Translations under genes and position numbers: made by a program | Source: Nocardioides cavernae | GTDB taxonomy: Bacteria; Actinomycetota; Actinomycetes; Propionibacteriales; Nocardioidaceae | Assembly: GCF_013410035.1 (NCBI RefSeq) | Contig: NZ_JACCBW010000001.1 | Span: forward strand, 868,001 to 932,000 | Length of the DNA: 64,000 nt | Direction of reading: 5' to 3' | Notes under the pieces: generated by a model | Seen by the model: the letters and a program-made list of their open reading frames with translations, nothing else | The model's database searches: none | What the model was told of the DNA's origin: nothing | Shown: positions 21,630-38,338 of the stretch, piece after piece | Numbering within the stretch: the stretch's first letter is position 1 | Layout of the letters: each line of letters begins with the position of its first letter

Positions 21630-22808
<1,179 letters not shown>

Positions 22809-22829
22809 GGTTTCACGGGCAGGTCGTGC

Positions 22830-23825
22830 TCAGGCCCTCAACAGCTTGAGCACGGCCCGCTCGAGCGCCGCCTGGCGGGCGTCGTCGGTCTCGAACGTTC
22901 CGCGGACCTTGACGGTCCGGCCGCGCTCGTAGGCCTCCACGACCCGAGGGTCGACGTAGGACGAGCGGGCGAGGGTCGGGGTGTTGCCGAGGAACTCCGA
23001 CACCTCCTTCATCGCACCCGAGACGGCCCTCTTGCGTGAGGCCTTGGTCTGGCCGGGCTCGTCGCTCTCGGCCAGCGCCGAGGCGGCGATGACGGTGGCG
23101 TGCCAGGTGCGGAAGTCCTTGGCCGTGGCCTCGATGCCGAAGCACGTGCGGATGTAGTCGTTGACGTCGGAGGACGACAGGTCCTTCCAGGTCCGGCCGT
23201 CCTTCCACGCCAGCAGCCGGTCGCCACCGCCCCGGCGCCGGCGCATCACGTCGAGCGCCTGGATCGCGGACGGGTCGTCGATGGTGATGTCGTGCTCGAC
23301 GCCGGACTTGCCGACGAACACGAACCGCATCCCGTCCCGGGTCCGGGAGACGTGCTCGCGCAGCATCGTCGTCAGGCCGAACGACCCGTTGGTGTCGGTG
23401 TAGACGTCGTTGCCGATGCGGAAGTAGCCGAGGTCCAGGAGCCGGACGGCGGCCGCGCACGCGCGCTCCTGCGTCATGCCCTCGGCGCCGATGTCGGCGA
23501 GCACCCGCTCGCGGGCCTTGGACAGCGCCTTGCCGAACCCGAGGATCCGGTCGAACTTCGCGGCGTCGCGGCTGGAGCGCCACTGCGGGTGGTAGAGGTA
23601 CTGCTTGCGACCGGCGTCGTCGGTGCCGACGGCCTGGAGGTGGCCGTTGGCGTACGGGGTGATCCACACGTCCTTCCACGCCGGCGGGATCACGAGGTCC
23701 TTGCACCGCTGCACCTGCTCGGCGTCGAGCTTCTGGCCGGCCTCGTCGAGGTAGGTGAAGCCCTTGCCGGACCGGCGTCGGGTCCAGCCGGGCTGGTCGG
23801 GGAACGTGCGCCTCAGTCGCGGCAT
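22830..23825 (-). CDS. DNA topoisomerase IB (poxvirus type)
   Basis: This 331-residue type IB topoisomerase relaxes supercoils through a 3'-phosphotyrosyl intermediate. The N-terminal domain has GKGFTYLDEAGQKL and IPPAWKDVWI; the catalytic domain has FRIGNDVYTDTNGSFGLTTM, KSGVEHDITIDD, DFRTWHATVIAA and ARSSYVDPRV, with Tyr290 as the nucleophile. Such enzymes are common in actinobacteria beside the usual TopA. The -10 box TAGGTT ends 6 nt before ATG 23825. Confidence 0.95.
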   Translation of the reverse strand: MPRLRRTFPDQPGWTRRRSGKGFTYLDEAGQKLDAEQVQRCKDLVIPPAWKDVWITPYANGHLQAVGTDDAGRKQYLYHPQWRSSRDAAKFDRILGFGKALSKARERVLADIGAEGMTQERACAAAVRLLDLGYFRIGNDVYTDTNGSFGLTTMLREHVSRTRDGMRFVFVGKSGVEHDITIDDPSAIQALDVMRRRRGGGDRLLAWKDGRTWKDLSSSDVNDYIRTCFGIEATAKDFRTWHATVIAASALAESDEPGQTKASRKRAVSGAMKEVSEFLGNTPTLARSSYVDPRVVEAYERGRTVKVRGTFETDDARQAALERAVLKLLRA

Positions 23826-23831
23826 GCCGCG

Positions 23832-23837
23832 AACCTA
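23832..23837 (-). promoter_or_regulatory. -10 box of the topoisomerase IB gene (leaderless)
   Basis: TAGGTT on the minus strand ends 6 nt before ATG 23825; no ribosome site. Confidence 0.45.
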
Positions 23838-23876
23838 CTGGTGCCACGCGACCCGCCGGACACCCAGAGGGAGGGG

Positions 23877-24374
23877 TCAGTCGCCGAGCGCGGACGCGAC
23901 CTCGTCGAGGGCCGACCGGCCGTAGGCGACGATGCGCGCCTCCTCGACTCCCGTCGGCGTCGCGCGGAGCGTGTCGATGGCGGCGCGGATCGCGTCTTCG
24001 CGCGGCCACCCGTAGACGCCGGCGCTGACGAGGGGGAACGCCACGCTGCGGGCGCCGAGCTCGTCGGCGACGGCGAGCGCTCCGGTGTAGCAGGAGACGA
24101 GCAGCGACCGGTCGCGCTCACCCCTGTTCCAGTTGGGGCCGACCACGTGGATCACCCAGCGCGCCGGCATCCGCCCGGCCGTGGTCCAGCCGGCCGCGCC
24201 GGTCGCGAGCCCGTCGGGGAAGCGACGGCGGCAGTCCTCGAGCACCTCCGGCCCGCCCGCGGCATGGATGGCGCCGTCCACCCCGCCGCCACCGCGCATC
24301 CTGCGGTTGGCCGCGTTGACGACCGCGTCGACGTCCTGGACCGTGATGTCGCCCTGCACGACGGTGACCTGCAC
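23877..24374 (-). CDS. Macro-domain protein, O-acetyl-ADP-ribose deacetylase type
   Basis: This 165-residue macro domain should bind ADP-ribose and may hydrolyse O-acetyl-ADP-ribose (a sirtuin product) or reverse ADP-ribosylation. The marks are VVQGDITVQDVDAVVNAAN, RRMRGGGGVDGAIHAAGG with the catalytic loop, and SVAFPLVSAGVYGWPREDA. GTG 24374 follows the stop of the M4 protease gene by 3 nt, so the two are cotranscribed and possibly coupled. A functional link to the protease is not obvious; the sirtuin at 2772 is far away. Confidence 0.93.
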   Translation of the reverse strand: MQVTVVQGDITVQDVDAVVNAANRRMRGGGGVDGAIHAAGGPEVLEDCRRRFPDGLATGAAGWTTAGRMPARWVIHVVGPNWNRGERDRSLLVSCYTGALAVADELGARSVAFPLVSAGVYGWPREDAIRAAIDTLRATPTGVEEARIVAYGRSALDEVASALGD

Positions 24375-24377
24375 GCC

Positions 24378-25673
24378 TCAGACCTCCGAGCCCGGCTGCA
24401 GCACCCGGCGCGCGAGCTCGGCCTGGCTGGCCGAGAGCAGGTGCTCGGGGACCCGCACGGGAGCGCCGCCGTCGACCGAGAACGAGTAGACGAACATGTC
24501 CGGCCGCGGCGGCACGTCCCTGAGGTCCGACCCGCCGAGCGCCTGGCGCACCAGGTCGCCGAGACCCGGGTCGCCCGGGTCGAGGTCGACCTCGGCAGCC
24601 TCGCTGCGACCGACGAACCCTCCGCTGCGCTCGACGCGCAGGCGGCCCTGGGAAGCGGGTGCGGGGACGCCGCCGGGCGCGGCGGGCTGGACACCCACCT
24701 GCGCCCAGGCCTCGCGCACCGCGTCGGCCTGCTCCCCGGCGGCCGCGACCGTGGCGGCGGCGAAGGTCGCGAAGTCGGCGTCCGACGGGACGTCGCCGCC
24801 CGTCAGCGCGGCGTACCAGATGCGTCCCGCACCCTCGAGCGCCGTGCTGCCGACGGCGACCGCCGCCAGCTGGAACGCCCTGTTGGGGATGCCGGAGTTG
24901 AGGTGCACGCCGCCGTTGTCGTCGGCGGTGTCGATGAAGTCGTCCATGTGGCCGACCTGCGGGTCCGCGCCGAGCTGGGGGTCGTCGTACGCCGTGCCGG
25001 GCGCCGCCATGTCGCGCAGCGCCCGCGCCTGGATCCCGGCGACGAAGAGCCCCTCCCCGATCAGCCAGTCGCCGTCGGCGGCCTGCTGACCGAGGAGTCG
25101 CTGCTTGAGGCAGGCTGCGAAGACGTCGGCGACCGACTCGTTGAGGGCCCCCGACTGGTCGCGGTAGGCAAGGTCGGCGGTCCGCTCCACGACGGCGTGG
25201 GAGAACTCGTGCGCCAGCACGTCCACCGGCTTGGTGAAGCGCTCGAAGACGCGGCCGTCACCGTCGCCGAAGACGAGCTGGGTGCCGTCCCAGAACGCGT
25301 TGTTGTAGCCCGAGCCGTAGTGGACCGTCAGGCTGACCGGCGCGCCGGCGTCGTCGTAGGAGTCGCGGGAGAACGCCTCGGCGAACATCTGCAGCGTCGA
25401 CTCGATGCCCACCGCGGCCTCGTCGACGGCGACGTCACCGGTCTCCGGCTCGCCGGCGCTGCGCGCGGGGGTCCCGGGCAGGGAGGTCGTGGAGCCGGCG
25501 TCGTGCACGGTCCAGGCGGTCGCGGCGGGTGCCACCGCACGCGGGGAGCCCGTCGTGGCGCGACGCTGCGCGCGCAACGCCTCGTCGCGCGCCACGGCGT
25601 CCGGACCGTCGACCCGCTCGGCGAGCCAGGGCGGGATGAAGGTGCAGTGCGGCGTGGTGTCCCGAGTCCTCAT
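24378..25673 (-). CDS. Protealysin-like M4 metallopeptidase fused to an emfourin-type inhibitor domain
   Basis: This 431-residue zinc protease has no signal peptide. Residues 9-22 (HCTFIPPWLAERV) match the PPYL-like start of a protealysin short propeptide. The peptidase has HEFSH at 155-159 (zinc His155/His159, catalytic Glu156), the third ligand Glu179 in NESVAD, and His257 in GGVHLNSGI. Residues 345-431 (RLRVERSGGFVGRSEA to VRVPEHLLSASQAELARRVL) resemble emfourin, a small protein that inhibits protealysin and is usually encoded as a separate gene. Here the inhibitor is fused in cis. The macro-domain gene follows 3 nt later. Confidence 0.9.
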   Translation of the reverse strand: MRTRDTTPHCTFIPPWLAERVDGPDAVARDEALRAQRRATTGSPRAVAPAATAWTVHDAGSTTSLPGTPARSAGEPETGDVAVDEAAVGIESTLQMFAEAFSRDSYDDAGAPVSLTVHYGSGYNNAFWDGTQLVFGDGDGRVFERFTKPVDVLAHEFSHAVVERTADLAYRDQSGALNESVADVFAACLKQRLLGQQAADGDWLIGEGLFVAGIQARALRDMAAPGTAYDDPQLGADPQVGHMDDFIDTADDNGGVHLNSGIPNRAFQLAAVAVGSTALEGAGRIWYAALTGGDVPSDADFATFAAATVAAAGEQADAVREAWAQVGVQPAAPGGVPAPASQGRLRVERSGGFVGRSEAAEVDLDPGDPGLGDLVRQALGGSDLRDVPPRPDMFVYSFSVDGGAPVRVPEHLLSASQAELARRVLQPGSEV

Positions 25674-25724
25674 GGGACAGGTCTACCTCGCGGCACCGAC
25701 AGCCGGAAGGGCTCCTCCGGACGA

Positions 25725-26540
25725 TCAGCAGGGCTTGTAGTCGAACGAGAGGCCCGACAGGAAGACCTTCTGGTCGCCGTCGGCCGACGAGCCGGTGCTG
25801 GACAGGTTCCAGTAGTGGAACTCGAACGACGTCACGGTGGGCATGGTGATCGCCACGTTGCCGTCGGTGCTGCCGTCGCCCACGCCCAGGTTGTTCGAGC
25901 TCGACCGGAAGGGGTCCGTCAGCGCTCCTGTGCCGGACACGTAGCTGGCGTTGGCCCTGCTGCTGGTGAACGCGGCGCCAGCGAGGGCGATGCCGTCCCA
26001 GAAGTCGCGGAAGGCCGAGTCGATGTCGCGGATGGTGAAGGTCAGCCCCGTCACCTCGCGGCTGAAGGTGAACGTGGTGATCGACTTGTTGGACGTGGTG
26101 GTCCACGTGTCGACCTTGTCCCCGTCGCGCCTCGGCGACTGGTGCAGCTGCAGGCTCGTGGCACCCGCTCCGGATCCACCCACGCCCGTGGTCGTCCGGA
26201 GGTTGTCGTTGATCCTGACGCCGTTCCCGCTGTTGTAGCCCTGGTCGCCGAGCTGGGTGTTGGACCCCAGGAACGTGGTGCTGATGGTGAGCGTCAGCGC
26301 CTCGCCGGGACCCGACCCGTCGGGGTCCGGGATCGTGTAGGTCGCGCTCGACGCGCTCGCCCGGCTGAACCGACTGCCGTTGGCCCAGTCCACGGTGCCG
26401 GCTCGCGAGTCGCACGGCGAGGCGGCGTAGGCCGGCGCGGTCGCCGCCACCGCCACCACCGGCACCGTCCAGGCCGCGGCCCGGGTGACGGAACGGCGTG
26501 ACGGACGCTGGGTGCTGCTCGGGTCGATCAAGGTGCTCAT
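25725..26540 (-). CDS. Tat-exported protein A of a two-cysteine family
   Basis: This 271-residue exported protein has the twin-arginine signal SRRSVTRAAAWTVPVVAVAA and a cleavage site near AYA-ASPC. The mature chain has exactly two cysteines: one in ASPC at its start and one as the last residue (FDYKPC). The body is rich in Ser, Thr and Asn and likely a beta sandwich, with motifs LTFTIRDIDS, TGALTDPFR and FEFHYWN. I know no described function. The closest relatives in this window are at 31457 and 32416. A CGGTAAC element lies 77 nt upstream, and the M4 protease gene follows 51 nt downstream on the same strand. Confidence 0.8.
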   Translation of the reverse strand: MSTLIDPSSTQRPSRRSVTRAAAWTVPVVAVAATAPAYAASPCDSRAGTVDWANGSRFSRASASSATYTIPDPDGSGPGEALTLTISTTFLGSNTQLGDQGYNSGNGVRINDNLRTTTGVGGSGAGATSLQLHQSPRRDGDKVDTWTTTSNKSITTFTFSREVTGLTFTIRDIDSAFRDFWDGIALAGAAFTSSRANASYVSGTGALTDPFRSSSNNLGVGDGSTDGNVAITMPTVTSFEFHYWNLSSTGSSADGDQKVFLSGLSFDYKPC

Positions 26541-26616
26541 GACGTGCTACCCCCCACCGCAAGGTCCCCCACGGACCCTGCTTTCCACCGAAACTACGGC
26601 CGACAAGGCAACGAAT

Positions 26617-26623
26617 CGGTAAC
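26617..26623 (-). promoter_or_regulatory. CGGTAAC element upstream of protein A
   Basis: CGGTAAC on the plus strand, followed by ATGC after a short gap, lies 77 nt before the start of protein A. The same element is found before proteins B and C at 84 and 71 nt. Confidence 0.4.
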
Positions 26624-26700
26624 GCCCGATGCCCGATTCAGTGATTTCCGCGGTACGCCCGCGCCAGCCGGGTCCGTACGCGATGCGGCCCCGCCGCTGA

Positions 26701-26731
26701 TTGAGGCCGTACGCCGGTCCCCCGGTAACCT
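26701..26731 (+). promoter_or_regulatory. Putative typA promoter
   Basis: TTGAGG (26701-26706) and TAACCT (26726-26731) are separated by 19 nt, slightly long for sigma-A. Transcription would start about 40 nt before typA. Confidence 0.35.
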
Positions 26732-26779
26732 TGAGCGGCGCCTCTCGCGCCCCTCGCCTCCTCGAAGAGAGTCTTTCGC

Positions 26780-28669
<1,890 letters not shown>

Positions 28670-28674
28670 GTCTG

Positions 28675-29319
28675 GTGGCGCCCGGCTCATCCGAGGACAC
28701 CGGCGAGCGGTTGGCGGACTGGCTGGAGGCCCTCGGGCTCTCCGACCAGCTGGCCGCCGCCGGGCTGCCGACGTACGACCGCGTGGACGGCGTCGTGCGC
28801 TGGCGGGAGCCCGGGACGTCGGAGCCGCTGGACGCGGACCGGCTGGCGGACCTCGACCGTCAGCTGCGGGCCCAGGGCGACGACCCTGCCCACGCCGTTC
28901 CGGTCGCCCTCGTGCGACTGCGCCGGGAGGCGAGGGTGCGCGCGGAGCTGCTCGACGGAGGATGGCTGGACTACGCCGGCGTCGCCGCCCTCCGCGGTGT
29001 CTCGCTCAACGCCGCCCGCTTCGCGGTGCACAAGGCGGCTGAGCGTCGGACCATGCTGCTGGTGCAGCACGAGGGCACGATCCTCGTCCCCACCTTCCAG
29101 CTCGACGCGGTCGGCGAGGTGCGCGCCGAGCTGCTCACGGTGCTCGAGCCGTTGTTGGCCTCGGTCGACCCGTGGCGCGCATGGATCTGGCTGACCACGC
29201 CGGCCGGCCTGCTGGGCGGGGAGGTGCCGCACGAGGCCGCCCGGGACGCGGACGAGCTGCCTGTCGTCCAGCGAGCCGCGATGGCGCTCGCGGAGCGGGC
29301 ACAGGCCTCGCGCGGATAA
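28675..29319 (+). CDS. DUF2384-like (MbcA/ParS/Xre antitoxin-type) protein without toxin partner
   Basis: This 214-residue protein follows typA by 6 nt with GTG 28675. The middle holds a helix-turn-helix-like stretch DYAGVAALRGVSLNAARFAVH (about residues 100-120). The C-terminal part FQLDAVGEVRAELLTVLEPL and DPWRAWIWLTTPAGLLGGEVPHEAARD resembles the MbcA/ParS/Xre toxin-binding domain. Antitoxins of this type sit next to RES-domain NAD-phosphorylase toxins, but none is present here. It may be an orphan relative with another role. Confidence 0.7.
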   Translation: MAPGSSEDTGERLADWLEALGLSDQLAAAGLPTYDRVDGVVRWREPGTSEPLDADRLADLDRQLRAQGDDPAHAVPVALVRLRREARVRAELLDGGWLDYAGVAALRGVSLNAARFAVHKAAERRTMLLVQHEGTILVPTFQLDAVGEVRAELLTVLEPLLASVDPWRAWIWLTTPAGLLGGEVPHEAARDADELPVVQRAAMALAERAQASRG

Positions 29320-29379
29320 GGCCGTGCCCACTGGATCAGTACGCTCGAACCGTCGACGACGTCGAAACATGGAGATGAC

Positions 29380-30063
29380 ATGACGCTCGATCGCCGCACC
29401 GTGGTGCGGGGTGCCGCCTGGACCGTGCCCGCGATCGCAGTGGCGGCTCAGGCACCTGCCTTCGCCGCGTCGCCGTGCGCGCCCGTCCCCTTCCAAGCCA
29501 ACTGGCGGGTCACGAGCACGGGGACGTTCAACGCAGACCGACGAGGCTTCCTCACGGGCTACCCCGATGGCGTGGAGCGCTACCTCAGCGAGGCCGACAA
29601 CAGCCGCACCACGTCGGAGACCGTGGCGACAAACAGCTCCACGATCACGCTCGAGCGCGACCTGACGCTGGTAGCAGGGCGCGAGTACACGTTCTCCTTC
29701 ACGATCGCGTCGCGATTCTCGGGCGACAACTCCACGAACTCGCAGAACCAGCACCTGCAGATCCAGACCGTCGTGGGAGGAAGCGCAACCGACCGCCTCA
29801 AGCTGGTCAAGGGCGGCCGGGACACCACCCACTTCGGCAACCTGGCCGCGAACGGATGGTCTCGGCTGCTTCCGCTGACGACACCTCCGGGTGGCGTCCA
29901 GGTCGAGACCCGCTCGTTCACGTACACACCCCCGGCCGGGACGAGCGCCGTGGTCCTCCGCTACCAGTACACGCTCCCGGCCCGCGGCTACACCGGGGGG
30001 ACATTCCCAGGACAGGCGGACATCGCAGTCAGCGCTCCCGCGATCAGCGGCGAGGGGTGCTGA
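29380..30063 (+). CDS. Tat-exported protein D of the two-cysteine group
   Basis: This 227-residue exported protein has the same signal as its neighbours (DRRTVVRGAAWTVPAIAVAA, cleavage near AFA-ASPC) and again only two mature cysteines, in ASPC and as the very last residue (SGEGC). The body differs from proteins A-C and has long beta strands (EYTFSFTIASRFSG, LQIQTVVGG, SAVVLRYQYTLPARG), suggesting a jelly-roll fold. The function is unknown. GGAGATGAC precedes the ATG. The perfect dyad TCGACG-A-CGTCGA at 29353-29365 sits in the 5' leader. The end overlaps the convergent MFS gene by 20 bp. Confidence 0.75.
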   Translation: MTLDRRTVVRGAAWTVPAIAVAAQAPAFAASPCAPVPFQANWRVTSTGTFNADRRGFLTGYPDGVERYLSEADNSRTTSETVATNSSTITLERDLTLVAGREYTFSFTIASRFSGDNSTNSQNQHLQIQTVVGGSATDRLKLVKGGRDTTHFGNLAANGWSRLLPLTTPPGGVQVETRSFTYTPPAGTSAVVLRYQYTLPARGYTGGTFPGQADIAVSAPAISGEGC

Positions 30064-31411
30064 CCGACTCCTCGGCGTGCCGCAAGGTCGGCGCGAGGAC
30101 GACAAGGCCCAGCAGCGGGAGCACGGCCAGGACCAGCAGTGCGACCGGCATGCCGAGCGGTCCGCCGATCCCGCCGACCACGGCGGAGCCGATGCTGCCG
30201 CCGACGAGGAACAGCAGCGTGGACACGCCGAGCGCCACGCCCCGTACGTCCTCGCGGACGGAGTCGCCGACGACCGCGCTGAGCGCGGGCTGACCGAGGC
30301 CGAAGGCGAAGGTCACCAGGATGATCGCCACGACGAGCACGGGGGCGTTGACCCACCACGCGCCGAGCGTCGCGACCACCAGTGCGACCGAGGCGACGAG
30401 CCCGGCCATGGCGAGAGCACGGTTCGGACCGATGCGGTTGAGGGTCGGACCCGTCACCTGCGGGACCAGCAGCGCGACGACGGCGCTCGGCACCATCGCG
30501 AGCCCGACCTGCCACGCCTCCCAGCCCTCGGCGAGCAGCACGGCGGGCAGCGCGATGAGCATGGCGAACCACGACGCCGGCACGGCTGACGCCGCGACGG
30601 CGCTCCGCACGACGGCCGCGTTGCGGATCACCTCGACGGGCAGGAAGCCGTCGGGGCGCCGGCGTACGGTCGCCCGCACGGCCGGGACGCCGACGACGAG
30701 CAGTGCGGCGCCGATGCCCGCCACCACCAGGCCCGCGGACGGCGACTGGACGAGCAGGACCATGCCCGCGGCGGTGCCGGCGACCAGCACGGCGCCGATG
30801 ACGTCGAGGCGGGCGCCGCTGCCGCCGGTCGGGAGCGCCCGCCAGAGCAGCGGGACGACGAGCGCGCCCAGGATCGGCAGCGCCATGACCGCGCGCCAGC
30901 CGTACGCCGCCTCGACGACCCCGCCGATCAGCGGGCCGAGGCAGCTGATCGCCGCGGCGACGCCGGCGAGGCGTCCGAAGGCGAGCCCGCGGACCTCGCC
31001 GGTGTACTTCGCGGAGAGGATCGTGACCCCGAGCGTCGGCACGGCCGCGGCGCCGGCCCCCTGTACGAGCCTCGCACCGAGGAGCACCTCGAACGTCGGC
31101 GCCACGGCCGCCACCAGCGCGCCGACCGACATGAGGACGAGCCCGGCGAGCAACGGCCCGCGCACACCCACGAGGTCGGAGATGCGGCCGTAGAGGGCCG
31201 TCGTGACGGCCAGCATCAGGACGTAGAGGCTGATCACCCACGCGGCGATGCCCGCGCTGACGCCGAGGTCGTCGGCCAGCAGCGCGAGGGCGACCGCTGC
31301 ACTCGACGACCCCATCCCGGCCAGTCCGAAGAGGAGGCCGAGGAGGTACGGCACGCGCCGCGAGTCGTCAGGCTCGGTCGCCGGGGTCGTGGTCTCGCGC
31401 GCGGAGGTCAT
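30044..31411 (-). CDS. MFS transporter (DHA-type drug efflux-like)
   Basis: This 455-residue permease has about 14 hydrophobic helices. Motif A is GRISDLVGVRGPLL, and the helix-5 signature region is CLGPLIGGVVEAAYGWR, typical of multidrug exporters. The helices after residue 200 are rich in Val and Ala. ATG 31411 is chosen (MTSARETTTPATEPDD); an in-frame GTG at 31432 is the alternative and neither has a clear ribosome site. The gene lies 45 nt downstream of protein B on the same strand, and no regulator is adjacent. Substrate unknown. Confidence 0.85.
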   Translation of the reverse strand: MTSARETTTPATEPDDSRRVPYLLGLLFGLAGMGSSSAAVALALLADDLGVSAGIAAWVISLYVLMLAVTTALYGRISDLVGVRGPLLAGLVLMSVGALVAAVAPTFEVLLGARLVQGAGAAAVPTLGVTILSAKYTGEVRGLAFGRLAGVAAAISCLGPLIGGVVEAAYGWRAVMALPILGALVVPLLWRALPTGGSGARLDVIGAVLVAGTAAGMVLLVQSPSAGLVVAGIGAALLVVGVPAVRATVRRRPDGFLPVEVIRNAAVVRSAVAASAVPASWFAMLIALPAVLLAEGWEAWQVGLAMVPSAVVALLVPQVTGPTLNRIGPNRALAMAGLVASVALVVATLGAWWVNAPVLVVAIILVTFAFGLGQPALSAVVGDSVREDVRGVALGVSTLLFLVGGSIGSAVVGGIGGPLGMPVALLVLAVLPLLGLVVLAPTLRHAEESVSTPRR

Positions 31412-31456
31412 CGAGAGGCGACAACGACGCACGGCAGCACGTCATTCCCGCGAGAC

Positions 31457-32248
31457 TCAGCAGGGGTCGTAGTCGAACGTGAGGTTGCTGAGGAAGATCG
31501 CCTGCTGGTTGTTCAGCGCGCCGGACGTGTTGCCCAGGTTGGCGGAACGGTTCCAGTACGTGATGGAGAACGAAGAGATCTCGTTCGCGTAGGAGACCCG
31601 GACATTGCCGCTCTGGCTGGTGAAGTCGTCCACCGGCGCCGTGGCGGACGAGGCGCGGTAGGGGTCGGTGTCCGTGCCGGCACCGGTCAGTGCGGTCGCC
31701 CGGAACTGCTGGGTGAAACCCGGGGTCAGTGAGACGGCGTCGTAGTACTGGCTGCCGTTGGAGTCGATGTCGGTGACCGTGAACGTCAGGTTCTTGACGG
31801 GCCTCGAGAACTGGAAGGTGTAGGTGCCGCGGTCGTTGAACGTTCCGGCCCCCGTCGAGGTCGTCGACTGGTACATGACGAGTCCCGCACCCAGGTTGCC
31901 GACGTTGCTCTGAAGCAGGAGGCTGTCGTTGACCGCGTTGCCGAACTCGGTGCCGGACTTCATGTTGCCCGAGTAGACCGCGGTCGTGGTGAGGGTGAGG
32001 ACCGGGACCGGGCCGTTCCCGTCCGGGTCGTACTTCGTCGTGGCACCGAGGATGCTGGTGCGCTGGTGCGTCGTCGTCGCGGTGTTGTCCCAGTCGATGA
32101 CGGCTCCGGTGCGCGGGTCGCACGGGGAGGCAGCGAAGGCCGGGGCAGCCGTGGCGGCCGCGATCACCGGCACGGACCACGCCGCGCCGCGCACGACCGT
32201 GCGGCGAGAGGTGCGCGTCATGTCGAGCACGTCGGTGTCCAGCTTCAT
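31457..32248 (-). CDS. Tat-exported protein B of the two-cysteine family
   Basis: This 263-residue exported protein has a twin-arginine signal SRRTVVRGAAWSVPVIAAAT with cleavage near AFA-ASPC. The mature chain has two cysteines only, ASPC at the start and FDYDPC at the end. Motifs shared with proteins A and C are LTFTVTDIDS, TDTDPYR, FSITYWNRSA and the final QAIFLSNLTFDYDPC. The sequence is low in charged residues and rich in Ser, Thr and Asn, as expected for a surface beta sandwich. Function unknown. A CGGTAAC element lies 84 nt upstream. The MFS gene is directly downstream. Confidence 0.8.
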   Translation of the reverse strand: MKLDTDVLDMTRTSRRTVVRGAAWSVPVIAAATAAPAFAASPCDPRTGAVIDWDNTATTTHQRTSILGATTKYDPDGNGPVPVLTLTTTAVYSGNMKSGTEFGNAVNDSLLLQSNVGNLGAGLVMYQSTTSTGAGTFNDRGTYTFQFSRPVKNLTFTVTDIDSNGSQYYDAVSLTPGFTQQFRATALTGAGTDTDPYRASSATAPVDDFTSQSGNVRVSYANEISSFSITYWNRSANLGNTSGALNNQQAIFLSNLTFDYDPC

Positions 32249-32331
32249 GGTGCGAGTCCCTGCGTCTAAGAGCGAGAACCCCCACGGCTCCCAGTTGATG
32301 ACTCAACGCTAGGGAGCGGGCGAGAACGGGA

Positions 32332-32338
32332 CGGTAAC
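32332..32338 (-). promoter_or_regulatory. CGGTAAC element upstream of protein B
   Basis: The element sits between gene B and the end of gene C, 84 nt before the start of B, and is followed by AATGCC. Confidence 0.4.
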
Positions 32339-32415
32339 AATGCCTCTCGGCAGGGACATAGTTGAAGAACGACGGACCTTGTGGCCCCCGTCACACGGGA
32401 GCATAGAGCCGATGA

Positions 32416-33171
32416 TCAGCAGCCGACGGCGGTCCACGTCAGGTCGCCGATCCAGATGGCCTGCTGGCTCGAACCGCCCCGGTTCCAGTAGCGGATCTCG
32501 AAGTCGGTCACCGGCGAGAGGAACTTGACCGCGACGTTGCCGCGGTTGTCGGCCGTGTCCGGGATGTTGGCCGGCGTCGGATTGCTGGCGGGGGGTCGCC
32601 AGGGGTCGGTGTAGGTGCCGGTGCCGATCACGTACGAGCTGGCGGGGATGCCGGTGCGGTTCCCCGAGACGGCCACGCGGTCGGAGAAGTTGCCGGACTG
32701 GAAGTCGATGTCGGTGATGGTGAAGGCGAGGTCGGACACTGACCGGTCGAAGCGGACGACGACGGTCTGGTAGACGTTGTCGGAGTTGGCGCTGGAAGAG
32801 TGCCACAGCTCGAGGCCCTGCTCACCGGCGCCGAGCGCACCGATGTTGCCCATCCCGGCCTCGATGTCGAGGTTGGTCTGGTGACGCGTGATGCTGCTGA
32901 ACAACGTGTTCGTCACCGAGCTGTTGAAGGTGACGGTGATTGGGTAGGTCCCTGCGACGTTGTTGACCGTGGCCGTGCCGAGGTTCGCCGTGTTCTTCGT
33001 GTAGCTCGTGGTGCCCCAGTCGAGCTTCCAGCTGTACGTCGACCCGCAGGGCGAGGCCGCGAAGGCGGGCGCGGTCGTGGCGGCGGCGACGACGGGGACG
33101 CTCCAGGCCGCACCGCGCACCAGCGTGCGCCGCGTGGTCCCCAGGGGCACCCCCGAGCTGGTCTCCGTCAC
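32416..33171 (-). CDS. Tat-exported protein C of the two-cysteine family
   Basis: This 251-residue exported protein has the twin-arginine signal TRRTLVRGAAWSVPVVAAAT and cleavage near AFA-ASPC. Again there are only two mature cysteines, in ASPC and as the C-terminal residue (TAVGC). Shared motifs are LAFTITDIDF, GTYTDPWR, FEIRYWNRGG and QAIWIGDLTW. GTG 33171 is chosen because GGAGGA lies 6 nt upstream. The longer frame to 33309 would put 46 residues before the signal. Function unknown; a role in the cell envelope is likely. Confidence 0.8.
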   Translation of the reverse strand: MTETSSGVPLGTTRRTLVRGAAWSVPVVAAATTAPAFAASPCGSTYSWKLDWGTTSYTKNTANLGTATVNNVAGTYPITVTFNSSVTNTLFSSITRHQTNLDIEAGMGNIGALGAGEQGLELWHSSSANSDNVYQTVVVRFDRSVSDLAFTITDIDFQSGNFSDRVAVSGNRTGIPASSYVIGTGTYTDPWRPPASNPTPANIPDTADNRGNVAVKFLSPVTDFEIRYWNRGGSSQQAIWIGDLTWTAVGC

Positions 33172-33241
33172 GAACGATCCTCCGCGTCCGACCGGCCCGT
33201 GGCGTGCCTCCTTCGCAGCCATCTGTTGCCGATCCACACCA

Positions 33242-33248
33242 CGGTAAC
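33242..33248 (-). promoter_or_regulatory. CGGTAAC element upstream of protein C
   Basis: The element lies 71 nt before GTG 33171 and is followed by GAAATGC, like the copies before A and B. Confidence 0.4.
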
Positions 33249-33321
33249 GAAATGCACGCCCGCGCACTGCCGAACACTCGAATCGACGGCTCCGCGGCGG
33301 CGGCCGCACCTGATCCGGGGG

Positions 33322-34368
33322 TCAGCGCCGGGACGGATCGAGCGCCCGCGGGAGCCCGAAGACCCACGTCCAGCGCAGCCTGTCGGCGACCACCGCGACC
33401 AGCAGTGGCACCGCGACGCCCAGCGTGGTGCCGGCCACGAGGTGCATCCACGGGTCACCCACGCCCGCCCGGTCGAGCAGGATCCGGGTGCCCGAGGCCA
33501 CCACGATGTGCGCGAGGAAGATCTCGAGCGACCGGCGGCCCAGCAGGGCGACGACGCCCGCCACGGGCGTACGGGCGACCAGCGCGGCAACCGCGAGCGC
33601 GGCGACGGTCCCGGCGAGGCATCCCAGCACCCCCAGCGCCACCGTCGGGACGGTCCGCTCGTCGCCTCCGGTGGTCGGCGTCGTGGCGGTCGTGCCCAGG
33701 CCGACCCACAGCCACACCGCAGTTCCCACGACGGCCGCCACGGCGACGACCGTGGTCCTGCGCGCCGCTACCGCGTGCCCGGATTGCGTGACGACGCAGC
33801 CGATGAGGAACGGCAGGAGCAGGGCCCAGCCCCGGGTGAAGGCGTACAGCGGGTCGTAGCCCCAGACGGCGAGTGCGAGCACCGCCGCCAGGGCGAGGAG
33901 GACCGCTCCGCGGGCGCGGCTGCGCCACGGCTGCGTCAGGGCCGCGACGACCGAGACGCCGATCAGCCAGGGCAGGAACCACAGCTGGCCCTCCGGGACC
34001 CAGATCCTCGCGACGTCGGCCACGGTCACCGGGGTGTTCGCGACGGACGAGGCCGCGACCCGAACGGTGCCCTGGACGACGGTCCAGAGCAGGTAGAGCC
34101 AGACGAACAGGGTGATGCGCCGCGACAGCATCGCGCGAGGACCGTCACGCTCGACGGCTCGTCGCACGAACAGGCCGGACAGGTAGGCGAAGGTCGCGAG
34201 GTGGAACAGGTAGAGCAGCCGGTCGAGCGTCAGCGCGGTGTCGTAGGGCAGCAAGGAGGAAGACGCCAGGCCACGCTCGACATGACCGAGCACGATCGCG
34301 ACGATCGCGATCCCGCGGGCGACGTCGACCGACCGGTCGCGCGCGCTCGTCCCGGGACTGGCCTCCAC
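33322..34368 (-). CDS. Acyltransferase family 3 membrane protein (OafA-like)
   Basis: This 348-residue integral membrane protein has about ten helices and belongs to the acyltransferase-3 group that acetylates or succinylates surface sugars. It opens with RDRSVDVARGIAIVAIVLGHVERG, with the conserved Arg and His of the active site, and has LFHLATFAYLSGLFVRR. A later LEIFLAHI matches the usual FLxH helix near the end. Its place at the left edge of the polysaccharide region suggests it modifies surface glycans. GTG 34368 lies 8 nt after CATAGT, a leaderless-type -10 on the minus strand. Confidence 0.85.
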   Translation of the reverse strand: MEASPGTSARDRSVDVARGIAIVAIVLGHVERGLASSSLLPYDTALTLDRLLYLFHLATFAYLSGLFVRRAVERDGPRAMLSRRITLFVWLYLLWTVVQGTVRVAASSVANTPVTVADVARIWVPEGQLWFLPWLIGVSVVAALTQPWRSRARGAVLLALAAVLALAVWGYDPLYAFTRGWALLLPFLIGCVVTQSGHAVAARRTTVVAVAAVVGTAVWLWVGLGTTATTPTTGGDERTVPTVALGVLGCLAGTVAALAVAALVARTPVAGVVALLGRRSLEIFLAHIVVASGTRILLDRAGVGDPWMHLVAGTTLGVAVPLLVAVVADRLRWTWVFGLPRALDPSRR

Positions 34369-34395
34369 GGGGCACCACTATGCGGCACGGACGCC

Positions 34396-34401
34396 TACGA
34401 T
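34396..34401 (+). promoter_or_regulatory. -10 box of the MauE-thioredoxin gene (leaderless)
   Basis: TACGAT ends 7 nt before ATG 34409. It overlaps ATG 34400, which is therefore a poor start. Confidence 0.45.
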
Positions 34402-34408
34402 GCGGGCC

Positions 34409-35392
34409 ATGTCGTCGGCACCGGTCGCACTGCTCGTCGTCGTGCTGACCCTCGCCGTGGTGCTGCTGACCAGCGGCCTCGCCAAGCTGCGTGACCGGCA
34501 GGCGACCCGGGACGCCTTCGACGCCCTGCGCGTGCCGGACGTCGTGCCGGCCGGCCCGGCCGCCACGGCCCTGCCGTGGGTCGAGGTCGCGCTCGCCGCC
34601 CTCCTCCTGGTGGCTCCGGCACCGTGGCTGGTGCCGGTCGCGGTCGTGGTCCTGCTGCTCATGCTGGCGTACGCCGCCCTCGTGGTCCGTGCCCTCGGGT
34701 TCGACGAGCCGGTCGCCTGCGCGTGCTTCGGCAGCCTCGGCCGCCACGAGGTGGGCCGCACCACCGTCGCCCGCAACGTGCTGCTGTCGCTCCTGTCGGC
34801 CGTGACGCTGTGGTGGGCCGCCACCGGGGGCTCCGCGCCCGGCGCGGCGGGCGGACTCGACGTCCGGGGCTGGGCGACCCTGCTCGCCTGCGCCGCCGCG
34901 GTGACGGTGGCGGTGCTGGTCGCCGGCCGCGGGGCGGACAGCGCGGACGACGCCGAGCCGCTCGACTACGAACGCCAGCCCACGCCGTACGGCGTCGTGG
35001 AGCGGGCGGACGGCCGCACCGTGACGCTCGCCGAGCTGACCGCCACCCAGGCCCGCCTGCTGGTCGTCCTCAAGCCCGGCTGCGGCCCGTGCGTCCGTAC
35101 CGCCGAGAAGCTCGACGGCTGGGCCGCCCGGCTGGGGCCGGCCGTCGGGGTCGTCGCGGTCTACCCCGACCAGCCGTCGGCCGTGGGACAGACCCAGCAC
35201 GACGCCGACCTGGCCGTCGTCGAGCCGGAGCTCAACATCCGGCGGGTCTTCTCGGTCGGACAGCCGGCGGCGGTGCTGCTCGGGGCGGACGGATACCTCG
35301 CCGGCGGGCCGGTCGCAGGCGAGGGCTCGGTCGCCCGCTTCGTCGACGACGTGCTCGAGGCCGTGTCGGAGCAGCCGAGTCCGTCCGATTGA
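34409..35392 (+). CDS. MauE/DoxX-like redox membrane protein fused to a thioredoxin-like domain
   Basis: This 327-residue membrane protein has four or five helices in the first 170 residues, in the pattern of MauE (LTSGLAKLRDRQATRDAFDAL, CACFGSLGRHEVGRTTVARN). A thioredoxin-like domain follows from about residue 190 with the redox pair in LKPGCGPCVRTAEKL. MauE proteins help form disulfides in periplasmic partners, and the fused thioredoxin domain would serve as redox partner. The two-cysteine exported proteins nearby may be clients, but that is speculation. ATG 34409 is chosen from the -10 box position. Confidence 0.82.
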   Translation: MSSAPVALLVVVLTLAVVLLTSGLAKLRDRQATRDAFDALRVPDVVPAGPAATALPWVEVALAALLLVAPAPWLVPVAVVVLLLMLAYAALVVRALGFDEPVACACFGSLGRHEVGRTTVARNVLLSLLSAVTLWWAATGGSAPGAAGGLDVRGWATLLACAAAVTVAVLVAGRGADSADDAEPLDYERQPTPYGVVERADGRTVTLAELTATQARLLVVLKPGCGPCVRTAEKLDGWAARLGPAVGVVAVYPDQPSAVGQTQHDADLAVVEPELNIRRVFSVGQPAAVLLGADGYLAGGPVAGEGSVARFVDDVLEAVSEQPSPSD

Positions 35393-35417
35393 CGTCCGCG
35401 TGACCGGGGCCGGCTCC

Positions 35418-35423
35418 TAGGAT
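35418..35423 (+). promoter_or_regulatory. -10 box of the double glycosyltransferase gene (leaderless)
   Basis: TAGGAT ends exactly 6 nt before GTG 35430, without a ribosome site. Confidence 0.45.
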
Positions 35424-35429
35424 CGTCGC

Positions 35430-37274
35430 GTGCCCGCTCCCCTCGTCTCGGTCGTCGTGCCCACGCGCGGCGGTGCCGGCCGGCTGCCCGTGCTGCTCGG
35501 CGCACTGGCGGCGCAGACCCTCGCCGAGCCGTGGGAGGTCGTGCTGGTGCTCGACGGCGACGTCGACGGGAGCCGGGCCGTCGCCGAGGCGTACGCCGAC
35601 CGGGTCCCACTGCGCATCGTCGAGCGCCGCGGTGGCGACGGCGTGGGTGCGGCGCTCGCGGAAGGGTACGCCGCGGCCACCGGCGACATCGTGCTCCGGT
35701 GTGACGACGACCTGACGCCGGCCCCCGGCTTCCTCGCCGGCCACCTGGCCCGGCACCGGGATCGGCCGGTCGGCGCCCCGCCGCTGGGGGTCGTCTCGAT
35801 GACCCGCGACGTCTTCGCGGACACGCCGTACGCCAGTGCGTACGGCCGGCCCGCCAACGAGCGGCTGCTCGCCGAGGCCTACGCCCGACCCGCCGGCGAG
35901 CGCTGGCGGCACTGGGCGGCGTGCAACTCCGTGCCCCGCGCCGCCTACGAGGCGGTCGGCGGGTTCGACCCCACGATGGGCTACCGCGAGGACTCCGAGC
36001 TCGGCCTGCGGCTCGCGCAGGCGGGGGTCGAGATCGTCATCGACCCCGCCCTCGAGATCGAGCACCGGGGGCCGGCACCCGACACGTCCACCCGTGCTGC
36101 ACGCGCCTTCACCTCGGGGGCCTCCACGGTGGCGTTCGACGAGCGCCACCCGGGCCGGCACGGTGACGCGCCGCGGGCGACGGACCCGTGGGGGCGCGCG
36201 GTCGCGTCAGCCGCCCGGCGGATCCGTTCCCGCCCGGACGCCGCCGCGCTCGGTCGTCGGATCGACACCCTCCTCCCACACCTGCCCGCGCGGGCCCGGG
36301 CCAAGGCGGTCGCTCTGGCGGTCGAGGCCGCAGCCGTCGCCGGGCGACGTGCCGGGGACGACGCGTGGGTCCGCGACGTGCCGGACGGAGAGGTGACCAC
36401 CGTCAGCGTCGTCATCCCCCACCACGGCGATCCCGCCCCGACGCTGGCCCTGCTCGAGCAGCTCGCCGCGCAGACCCACCGCGTCGAGGTGGTCGTCGCG
36501 GACGACGCCTCGCCCACGCCGTTCCCCGACGTCGACGGCGTGACGGTGGTCCGTCGCCCGCGCAACGGCGGCTTCGGCGCCAACGTGAACTCCGGCGCCG
36601 CGGCGGCGACCGGCGAGGCACTCCTCGTCCTCAACAGCGACCTGGACGTCGAGCCGACGTTCGTCGCCGACATGGTCGCGGCCGCCCGGGCGCACCCCCG
36701 CGCGGTGCTCGCCCCGCGGATGGTCGACGAGCACGGCACCGAGGCGTGGGTGGGGCGTGACTTCCCGCGCGTGCGGCACGCGGCGGCGGCCTGGCTGACG
36801 CCGCTCGCGCGCTTCCGGGGCTCCGATGCCTGGCACCGCGCGGTCGGCCACGACGTGCGCGCCCACCGGGCCGAGGCCGAGGTGGACTGGGTCGTCGGGG
36901 CTGCGATGTGGATCCCTCTCGCCGACTTCCGCGCGGTCGGCGGATTCGACGAGCGGTTCTTCATGAACTCCGAGGAGGTCGACCTCCAGCGCCGTCTCCG
37001 CGAGCGCGGGCTGTCGGTGGTCTCGCTGCGCTCCCCGACCGTCGTCCACGAGGGCGGGGGCTCCTCGCCGTCGGACTCCCGGCGTCGCTGGCTGGTCGAG
37101 GGACAGCTGCTGTACGCCGACAAGTGGGGGTCGAAGCGGGGCCTGCAGGCCGCGCTGACCACGGCGACCGGCGTGAACCTCTTCGTGAACGCGACCCGTC
37201 GCGCGGCCGGTCGCGACATCCGGCCGCTCGAGGTCGCCCGCACCGAGCTGTCGATGATCCGAGGCCCCCGATGA
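35430..37274 (+). CDS. Two-domain GT2 glycosyltransferase
   Basis: This 614-residue cytoplasmic enzyme has two GT-A domains. The first (about 1-210) has VSVVVPTRGG, the metal-binding RCDDDL and YREDSELGLRLAQAG. A helical linker leads to the second (about 325-600) with VSVVIPHHGDPAPTLAL, GGFGANVNSGAAAA, VLNSDLDVEP and FMNSEEVDLQRRLRERGL, the pattern of rhamnosyl- and galactofuranosyl-like transferases. Each domain may add a different sugar, as in dual-activity chain builders. The next gene overlaps by ATGA, so they form a pair. Sugars cannot be assigned. Confidence 0.9.
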   Translation: MPAPLVSVVVPTRGGAGRLPVLLGALAAQTLAEPWEVVLVLDGDVDGSRAVAEAYADRVPLRIVERRGGDGVGAALAEGYAAATGDIVLRCDDDLTPAPGFLAGHLARHRDRPVGAPPLGVVSMTRDVFADTPYASAYGRPANERLLAEAYARPAGERWRHWAACNSVPRAAYEAVGGFDPTMGYREDSELGLRLAQAGVEIVIDPALEIEHRGPAPDTSTRAARAFTSGASTVAFDERHPGRHGDAPRATDPWGRAVASAARRIRSRPDAAALGRRIDTLLPHLPARARAKAVALAVEAAAVAGRRAGDDAWVRDVPDGEVTTVSVVIPHHGDPAPTLALLEQLAAQTHRVEVVVADDASPTPFPDVDGVTVVRRPRNGGFGANVNSGAAAATGEALLVLNSDLDVEPTFVADMVAAARAHPRAVLAPRMVDEHGTEAWVGRDFPRVRHAAAAWLTPLARFRGSDAWHRAVGHDVRAHRAEAEVDWVVGAAMWIPLADFRAVGGFDERFFMNSEEVDLQRRLRERGLSVVSLRSPTVVHEGGGSSPSDSRRRWLVEGQLLYADKWGSKRGLQAALTTATGVNLFVNATRRAAGRDIRPLEVARTELSMIRGPR

Positions 37275-38338
37275 CCCGCGCGCTGATCCTGTCCGAGCAC
37301 GACCTCGACGGGTGGGGCGAGCGCTACCGCCGCGGGGAGGTGCCGGCTCCGCTGCCCTACGGCGTCGACGCGCTGGCCGACGACCTCGGCTGGGCCCTCT
37401 CCGGTTCGCGTCGTGCGGTCGACCCGCGGTGGAGCCGGCTGCGCGACGTCGTCGAGCACCGCGCGGGCTTCCCGGTCGAGCAGACGATCCGCGGGGCCGG
37501 TGAGGTCCGGCGCAGCGATGTCGTCCTCGCCCTGCTCGAGCGGCAGGGGGCGGCGGCCGCGACGCTGCGGCGGCGCCGGGTGCCGCCGTACGGCTCGACA
37601 CCACTCGTCGTCTGGTCGTGCTGGCTCGCCGACGACCTCCGCTCGGCGGCCCCGGCGGAGCGGGCGCGGCTCAAGCACCGCTTCGACGGGGCCGACCTGA
37701 TCACGCACCTGTCGCGGCACGAGACCGAGATCTTCACCGACCTCGGCATCAGCGAGGACCGGCTCTTCCCGGTGACCTACGGGGTGAGCCACGACTACTA
37801 CGTCCCGGGTGACGGACCACGCGACATCGAGCTGCTCGCGGTCGGCCAGGACCGCGGACGTGACTACCGGACGCTGTTCGACGCCGTGCGGGGCACCGAC
37901 CTCGTGCTCGACGTCGTCTGCAAGCCGGAGAACCTCGCCGACCTCGACGTGCCCGACAACGTGCGGCTCCACGGCGTCGTCCCCCTCACGGAGTACCGCC
38001 GGATGCTCCAGCGCGCCCAGGTGGTCGTCGTGCCGACCCGTGACCTCGCCTACCCCACCGGCTCGAGCGTCGCGCTGGAGTCGGCGTCGTCCGGCGCCTG
38101 CGTCGCGGTCACCGGCACGCGCGCGATGCGCGACTACTTCACCGACGGCGTGGACTCGCGGCTCGTCGACGAGGGTGATGCCGAGGGCTGGCGCGCGGTG
38201 CTCGCCGAGCTGCGCGACGACGCCGCCCAGCGCGTACGGCTCGGCGCGGCCGCGCGGGCGAGCGTGGAGGCGCGCTTCAACGCGCGCCACATGTGGACCG
38301 AGCTCGCCGGCGTGATGCGGGAGCGCGGGCTGGTCTGA
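37271..38338 (+). CDS. GT4-like glycosyltransferase
   Basis: This 355-residue GT-B type enzyme has a short N-terminal domain and a C-terminal donor-binding domain. The latter contains DIELLAVGQDRGRDYRTLFDAV, VRLHGVVPLTEYRRMLQRAQVVVVPT and SGSSVALESASSGACVAVT-like sequence with the usual Glu. It matches GT4-like enzymes from exopolysaccharide loci. The ATG overlaps the preceding stop, so both are cotranslated. The opposite-strand gene begins 14 nt beyond the stop. Confidence 0.88.
   Translation: MTRALILSEHDLDGWGERYRRGEVPAPLPYGVDALADDLGWALSGSRRAVDPRWSRLRDVVEHRAGFPVEQTIRGAGEVRRSDVVLALLERQGAAAATLRRRRVPPYGSTPLVVWSCWLADDLRSAAPAERARLKHRFDGADLITHLSRHETEIFTDLGISEDRLFPVTYGVSHDYYVPGDGPRDIELLAVGQDRGRDYRTLFDAVRGTDLVLDVVCKPENLADLDVPDNVRLHGVVPLTEYRRMLQRAQVVVVPTRDLAYPTGSSVALESASSGACVAVTGTRAMRDYFTDGVDSRLVDEGDAEGWRAVLAELRDDAAQRVRLGAAARASVEARFNARHMWTELAGVMRERGLV

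Follow-up and report, generated by a model that had tools for sequence, protein, structure and literature searches.

Four Tat-type proteins of Nocardioides cavernae with cysteines at both ends, and a nearby MauE-thioredoxin fusion that may help to join them

Results and Discussion

Four proteins predicted to be exported have cysteines at both ends

We analyzed a stretch of 64,000 nucleotides (the window) from Nocardioides cavernae (assembly GCF_013410035.1, contig NZ_JACCBW010000001.1, positions 868,001 to 932,000 of the forward strand). Our subject is four of its genes, for proteins A to D, together with a nearby gene for a fusion of MauE with a thioredoxin-like domain (MauE-Trx; Table 1). 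As read from the open reading frames, A to D all combine a signal of the twin-arginine translocation (Tat) type, the residues A-S-P-C, and a cysteine at the end. The signal pattern RR[ST][VL].R[GA]AAW[ST]VP and ASPC are found in all four proteins. Each has exactly two cysteines: one is residue four of the mature chain as predicted, and the other ends the chain. The initial annotation had described all four genes, at these positions, with their common signal and "bookend" cysteines, and we confirm this.

Table 1. Features of the locus, with positions in the window
Feature	Position	Strand	Description
Protein A	25725..26540	-	271 aa, Cys 43 and 271; Tat-type signal, A-S-P-C, A/B/C core
Protein D	29380..30063	+	227 aa, Cys 33 and 227; predicted jelly-roll core of carbohydrate-binding module (CBM)/MAM type
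Protein B	31457..32248	-	263 aa, Cys 43 and 263; A/B/C core, modelled member
Protein C	32416..33171	-	251 aa, Cys 42 and 251; A/B/C core, GTG start
MauE-thioredoxin fusion	34400..35392	+	start 34400 or 34409; candidate staple-forming oxidoreductase
M4 (thermolysin-type) peptidase	24378..25673	-	Pfam; downstream of A, flanks second cargo site in relatives
TypA/BipA-type GTPase	26780..28669	+	landmark between two cargo sites; presumed name
MFS (major facilitator superfamily) transporter	30044..31432	-	lies downstream of B, beside one variable cargo site in relatives; presumed label
Acyltransferase-3 family membrane protein	33322..34368	-	separates C from MauE-Trx; retained by some relatives

Judging from the sequence, A to D have the features of Tat substrates: a twin-arginine motif, a hydrophobic stretch, and an A-x-A cleavage site. 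A six-frame search of the window for a looser pattern, RR[ST]..R[GA]AA[WA], finds A to D and nothing else. A genome-wide profile search gave one extra match, to the signal part only (L005, G000:C1:378604-378723). This is the fifth protein of the genome with this type of signal; it has about 356 residues, is glycine-rich, and has one cysteine and no bookends. (In protein C, a second in-frame GTG lies upstream, at 33309.) Proteins A, B, and C can be aligned over their whole length (B is 43% identical to A, and C is 35% identical to A). They share the inner motifs [IV].DID, TDP.R, and YWN, which D lacks, as the initial annotation had noted.

From the sequence, we rejected several other readings of these proteins. 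In a lipobox, the residue immediately before the cysteine that becomes the first mature residue is glycine, alanine, or serine. In all four proteins, proline directly precedes the cysteine (A-S-P-C), so there is no lipobox and A to D are not read as lipoproteins. Substrates of sortase end with an LPXTG-type motif, a hydrophobic helix, and a charged tail. A to D have no sorting signal and all terminate in cysteine, so we also rejected sortase anchoring. Head-to-tail ligation was rejected because three residues (A-S-P) precede the cysteine in the predicted mature chain, which puts it at position four instead of one.

Both end cysteines persist in relatives

With B as the query, a protein search found 118 relatives, and by eye most of the list shows the two-end pattern. 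We then used a profile to gather 170 distinct relatives of A/B/C. Seven of these lack a readable in-frame signal and were left unjudged. Both end cysteines are present in 158 of the 163 judged relatives. The exceptions are L170 and L174, which are artefacts of the pattern (both in fact have two end cysteines); P0047, whose frame is altered at its end; L087, whose last cysteine is at -7; and P0103, which has neither end cysteine. We found no genuine member with a single end cysteine among the 163. The initial annotation had named homologues lacking one terminal cysteine as a refutation of its reading, and this did not occur. A strict count of the two alignment columns over all 170 is lower (127 have both, 29 and 11 have one, and 3 have neither) because many relatives have the cysteine a few residues off the column.

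The pattern extends beyond A/B/C. Both end cysteines are present in 9 of 9 relatives of D. They are also present in all 118 judged members of a short family, unrelated to A/B/C but with the same type of signal, that was first met adjoining MauE-Trx in Herbiconiux. (One of the 118 has an additional, third cysteine. The family had 278 members, of which 120 were listed; the two that the script left unjudged also have two cysteines.)

Predicted folds and strand covariation

The models of B and D are both beta-sandwiches. The predicted local distance difference test (pLDDT) is 87.5 for B and 80.4 for D, and the predicted template modeling score (pTM) is 0.82 and 0.78, respectively. In structure comparisons, a CBM27 module aligned with residues 43-262 of B and the meprin MAM domain aligned with residues 31-226 of D, so the cysteines lie at the ends of the predicted domains. 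In both models, the C-terminal cysteine is three residues past the last strand, and the modelled jelly roll of D spans its whole mature chain. We predict that the A/B/C core is an adhesin-like beta-sandwich and that D is a jelly roll of the CBM/MAM type. The initial annotation gave D a different core. The absence of the inner motifs agrees with this, but D is also modelled as a jelly-roll beta-sandwich. The annotation also proposed a closed adhesion domain: "closed" fits the predicted beta-sandwiches, while "adhesion" comes from the resemblance of folds. By that same resemblance, a sugar- or surface-binding role may be proposed.

For the A/B/C model, a Foldseek search gave no matches at E <= 0.001. 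The A2 alignment (A, B, C, and 95 relatives) has 98 members, and none of them has a Pfam family at E <= 0.01. This distinguishes A/B/C from GbpC, the V-region of antigen I/II, and PrgB, as does their being small proteins that end at a cysteine. (We take those adhesins to have a stalk and a wall anchor; A/B/C have neither.) Ten distant members were scanned and had nothing above the Pfam cut-offs. Against solved structures, the A/B/C profile gave nothing useful (one match, at E 0.13). D itself is below the Pfam cut-off (PF22825, 17.9 bits versus 27). Among 13 members of the D family, one matched CBM_4_9 (E 0.003) and one had an HpiC1-like match (E 0.0035). Weak matches of the D profile to titin (E 4.5e-4 and 0.0088) were taken as generic. 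D also differs from carbohydrate-binding modules and MAM domains in that its single predicted disulfide would join the ends of the chain.

We then looked for covariation between the first and last strands. We tried 14 registers by mutual information (with several starts each) and 13 by mean-field coupling (with the best start of each). The best register by both measures is i+j=307, which pairs the strand at 46-51 with the strand at 256-260. It is in the top 0.56% of background windows by mutual information and in the top 0.19% by mean-field coupling. This is modest evidence for a pairing of first and last strands that would bring the end cysteines together.

Could the end cysteines instead form bonds between molecules, linking subunits at the cell surface as dimers or head to tail in chains? 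A cysteine at either end would suit the linking of chains, and long relatives, with mature parts of up to about 660 residues, keep the two-end pattern even though it is not obvious that their ends are adjacent. But the single-domain models and the covariation suggest neighbouring ends, which favors an internal bond, and the loss of both cysteines in P0103 and the even numbers of cysteines (see below) fit an internal bond equally well. We consider intermolecular bonds quite unlikely.

The signal type is joined to many cores

A scan of contigs gave at least 72 loci. (The sample is biased, as the query was the bookended family.) The loci listed encode 111 proteins of this signal type: 49 have exactly two cysteines, one at each end; 12 have the end cysteines and more; 20 have other patterns; and 30 have no cysteine. 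Where there are just two cysteines, they are at both ends in 49 of 56 proteins, as compared to 0.3 expected if cysteines were placed uniformly. The mature parts form 41 sequence clusters. The most frequent class is the two-end pattern in 5 of these and the absence of cysteine in 21. The 5 clusters are A/B/C, the long proteins, a family of 122-176 residues, a two-member cluster that is D-like by eye, and one single protein. The number of cysteines is even in 68 of the 81 cysteine-bearing proteins and in 11 of 11 in a small second set. Disulfides would produce such even counts.

It is very improbable, in our view, that the end cysteines bind a metal or a cofactor or remain as free thiols. Two invariant cysteines could ligate a metal, and we have nothing more direct in favor of this. 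Against it, the pattern spans cores that are unrelated in sequence, the proteins are exported, and their numbers of cysteines are mostly even.

As a separate observation, the long proteins (L105, L092, L124, L125, L127, L112, L109, and L132) seem, by eye, to have an immunoglobulin-like start followed by repeats of about 50 residues. Some have more than two cysteines, but most have exactly two, separated by as many as about 645 residues.

MauE-Trx co-occurs with the bookended proteins

The MauE part of MauE-Trx is clear (PF07291, 76.7 bits versus a cut-off of 27), and its thioredoxin-like part is under the Pfam cut-offs. The MauE part contains CACFG (CxCFG) and the thioredoxin-like part contains CGPC. 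CxCFG is conserved in 45 of 45 aligned rows and CxxC in about 40 (rows overlap between loci). This gene is the sole MauE match in the genome.

Across the genus, MauE-Trx is found in 35 of 215 genomes. All 35 are among the 69 genomes with a match to A2 (to the family or to the signal), and none are among the 146 others. Similarly, MauE-Trx is found in 14 of 149 genomes from the family (a sample that overlaps the genus set), all of them among the 29 with an A2 match. In G043, MauE-Trx and the A2 match are 2.2 Mb apart, and in G028 they are on different contigs, so the co-occurrence is not due to linkage alone.

Among the loci listed, MauE-Trx lies within 3 kb of 18 of the 49 proteins with exactly two bookends, as compared to 1 of the 62 others (Fisher test, P = 6e-7). 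In the lone other case (L114), a bookend gene is also near the same MauE-Trx. The pairing, with cores unrelated to A/B/C in sequence, is seen again in Herbiconiux (L095, L098, L114, and L132) and Microbacterium (L102 and L111). In Nocardioides genomes G044, G155, and G306, MauE-Trx is paired with a protein of the Herbiconiux type.

We compared the surroundings of MauE-Trx in 38 of the 39 genomes that have it (G222 was left out). If MauE-Trx has CxxC, there is a bookend gene within 3 kb in 20 of 30 cases; if no CxxC was seen, in 0 of 8, but among these 8 the thioredoxin part is cut off in L151 and L169, the start is cut off in L150, and the flanks are short in L148, L153, and L156. Four genomes (G161, G184, G195, and G267) have a CxxC-bearing MauE-Trx and no bookend gene near it; seven proteins of the signal type elsewhere in these genomes have 4, 6, or 10 cysteines. 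A homologue of the Microbacterium MauE-Trx is present in 11 of 394 genomes from a class-wide sample.

Separately, the homologues in G131, G282, G283, G095, and G119 (L144, L148, L149, L153, and L156) keep CxCFG and lack CxxC. No gene of the signal type is present in the stretch seen around them.

A proposed staple between the chain ends

The initial annotation proposed that the termini of each protein are joined by a disulfide. We think it probable, though by no means certain, that A to D are binding proteins exported by Tat and closed by an intramolecular disulfide staple from N- to C-terminus, likely with help from MauE-Trx. The staple is indirectly supported by the strict co-conservation of the cysteines across unrelated cores, by the mostly even numbers of cysteines, and by the covariation between first and last strands. 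The initial annotation also suggested that MauE-Trx could serve disulfide formation, and this link gains from the co-occurrence and from the recurrence in other genera.

In the proposed mechanism, A to D would fold in the cytoplasm and cross the membrane by Tat, and signal peptidase would cut before A-S-P-C. The last strand would be stapled to the first by a single intramolecular disulfide. Disulfide exchange with the end cysteines would fall to the CGPC of the thioredoxin-like domain, and the electrons would be passed on by CxCFG in the MauE part. (With five helices, both motifs would face the same side of the membrane.) Where MauE-Trx is absent, VKOR and DsbA-like proteins presumably do this job. 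The stapled domains would probably act in binding outside the cell and would differ from one species to another at constant positions on the chromosome.

There are several points against this reading. First, 30 of the 111 proteins of this signal type have no cysteine at all. Second, PMC9974433 indicates that about 60% of exported actinobacterial proteins have an even number of cysteines regardless, so comparing our counts to 50% overstates the result. Third, the coupling signal is modest and was chosen from several registers and starts, and the pair C43-C263 itself does not covary (rank 6547 of 23436); this pair is uninformative because it hardly varies. Fourth, the co-occurrence in the genus (Fisher test, P = 2.5e-21) is uncorrected for phylogeny, and many of the A2 matches are to the signal only. 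Fifth, there is no bookend gene within 3 kb of 10 of the 30 CxxC-bearing MauE-Trx genes, and the protein of the signal type closest to it is free of cysteine in G192 and G267. Outside Nocardioides, the class-wide homologues have no bookend gene within about 1.5 kb, so MauE-Trx may have other partners elsewhere. Sixth, the charge pattern of MauE-Trx leaves the side of its thioredoxin domain unsettled.

The remaining points against it also bear on a rival, in which the staple is real but is made by a pathway of the VKOR/DsbA type, and MauE-Trx is nearby owing to common descent of a conserved locus and has another role. The genome also encodes one VKOR and two DsbA-like matches. Of the 34 genomes of the genus that match A/B/C over the full length, 11 gave no MauE-Trx match, so MauE-Trx is not strictly required, and MauE-Trx is absent from the 3 kb around 31 of the 49 proteins with two bookends. 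Furthermore, MdbA is described as a general oxidase of many Actinobacteria (PMC9974433). On the other hand, the pairing recurs with unrelated cores in Herbiconiux, Microbacterium, and three Nocardioides genomes, and both partners are present even where they are far apart (in G043 and G028). We consider this rival somewhat unlikely.

A broader version of our preferred reading, in which MauE-Trx helps to close the staple, is that actinobacteria have a dedicated stapling line for Tat cargo: diverse proteins with the W-S-V-P signal would be closed by MauE-Trx, giving a variable surface repertoire. In such a line, the disulfide would perhaps be made at the inner face, as a check on the fold before export by Tat, and beta-sandwich and repeat cargo would be exchanged at set positions of the chromosome. 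Tat carries folded proteins and rejects badly folded ones. PMC9995818 states that Tat proofreading poses problems for disulfide-bonded cargo. Overall, we hold a dedicated line to be unlikely.

How does MauE-Trx compare to known systems? In PMC7794033, MauE is speculated to help form the disulfides of the beta-subunit of methylamine dehydrogenase, the exact function of MauD is called unclear, and homologues of MauE and MauD are noted near cysteine-rich predicted peptides in Streptomyces. As in MauE and MauD of Paracoccus, there is a MauE domain with a thioredoxin-like part, but here they form one fused protein beside unrelated two-cysteine cargo. We noticed no mau cluster in the open reading frames of 22000-38000, and no genome-wide search was made. 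MauE-Trx also resembles MdbA/TsdA with VKOR, which are CxxC oxidoreductases that form disulfides in exported proteins (according to PMC9974433). It differs in having its own MauE membrane domain with CxCFG and a patchy distribution. Among the literature matches listed, none describes this signal family, the end-cysteine pattern, or the pairing with MauE-Trx.

If our preferred reading is correct, then a class of exported proteins with no Pfam family (A/B/C) has a common architecture. MauE-thioredoxin fusions would also gain a substrate, where PMC7794033 reports only the speculation about MauE. And it would become testable how Tat handles cargo in which a disulfide must link the two ends, and at which face of the membrane the bond is made.

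Arrangement of the locus

The names of locus genes as TypA/BipA, MFS, glycosyltransferases, topoisomerase, and SerC are our presumption. In relatives, the order is glycosyltransferases, MauE-Trx, the acyltransferase (in some), 0-4 proteins of the signal type, and the MFS transporter. This is followed by a small gene, TypA, 0-2 proteins of the signal type, the M4 peptidase, topoisomerase, and SerC. The gene order is largely kept, and the number and kind of exported proteins differ. This backbone is seen over 21672-38338 of the window and in L034-L038, L040, L043, L044, and most of L157-L179. It is present in 8 of the first 20 regions; the other 12 were chosen for matches that lie elsewhere in their genomes. 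In five genomes with no MauE-Trx match (G315, G218, G316, G261, and G168), the stretch seen contains, of the exported proteins, only the one adjacent to the M4 peptidase (L157 and L159-L162).

A cysteine-free protein with the same type of signal (..TxFTGVxGTAEKWSN...HPA) is encoded at L034:8884-9483, L040:10296-10895, and L044:11975-12550. Its gene lies between TypA and the small gene; the window has no such protein at this site. ARAGORN reported a tRNA-Ser(CGA) at 27365-27443 on the minus strand, inside the TypA gene, which we took to be a chance match.

A lies 51 bp upstream of the M4 peptidase gene, and this adjacency recurs in relatives. No signal peptide is obvious in the peptidase, and the peptidase family is its only Pfam match. 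It also has a C-terminal extension, which we take to resemble emfourin, the inhibitor of protealysin.

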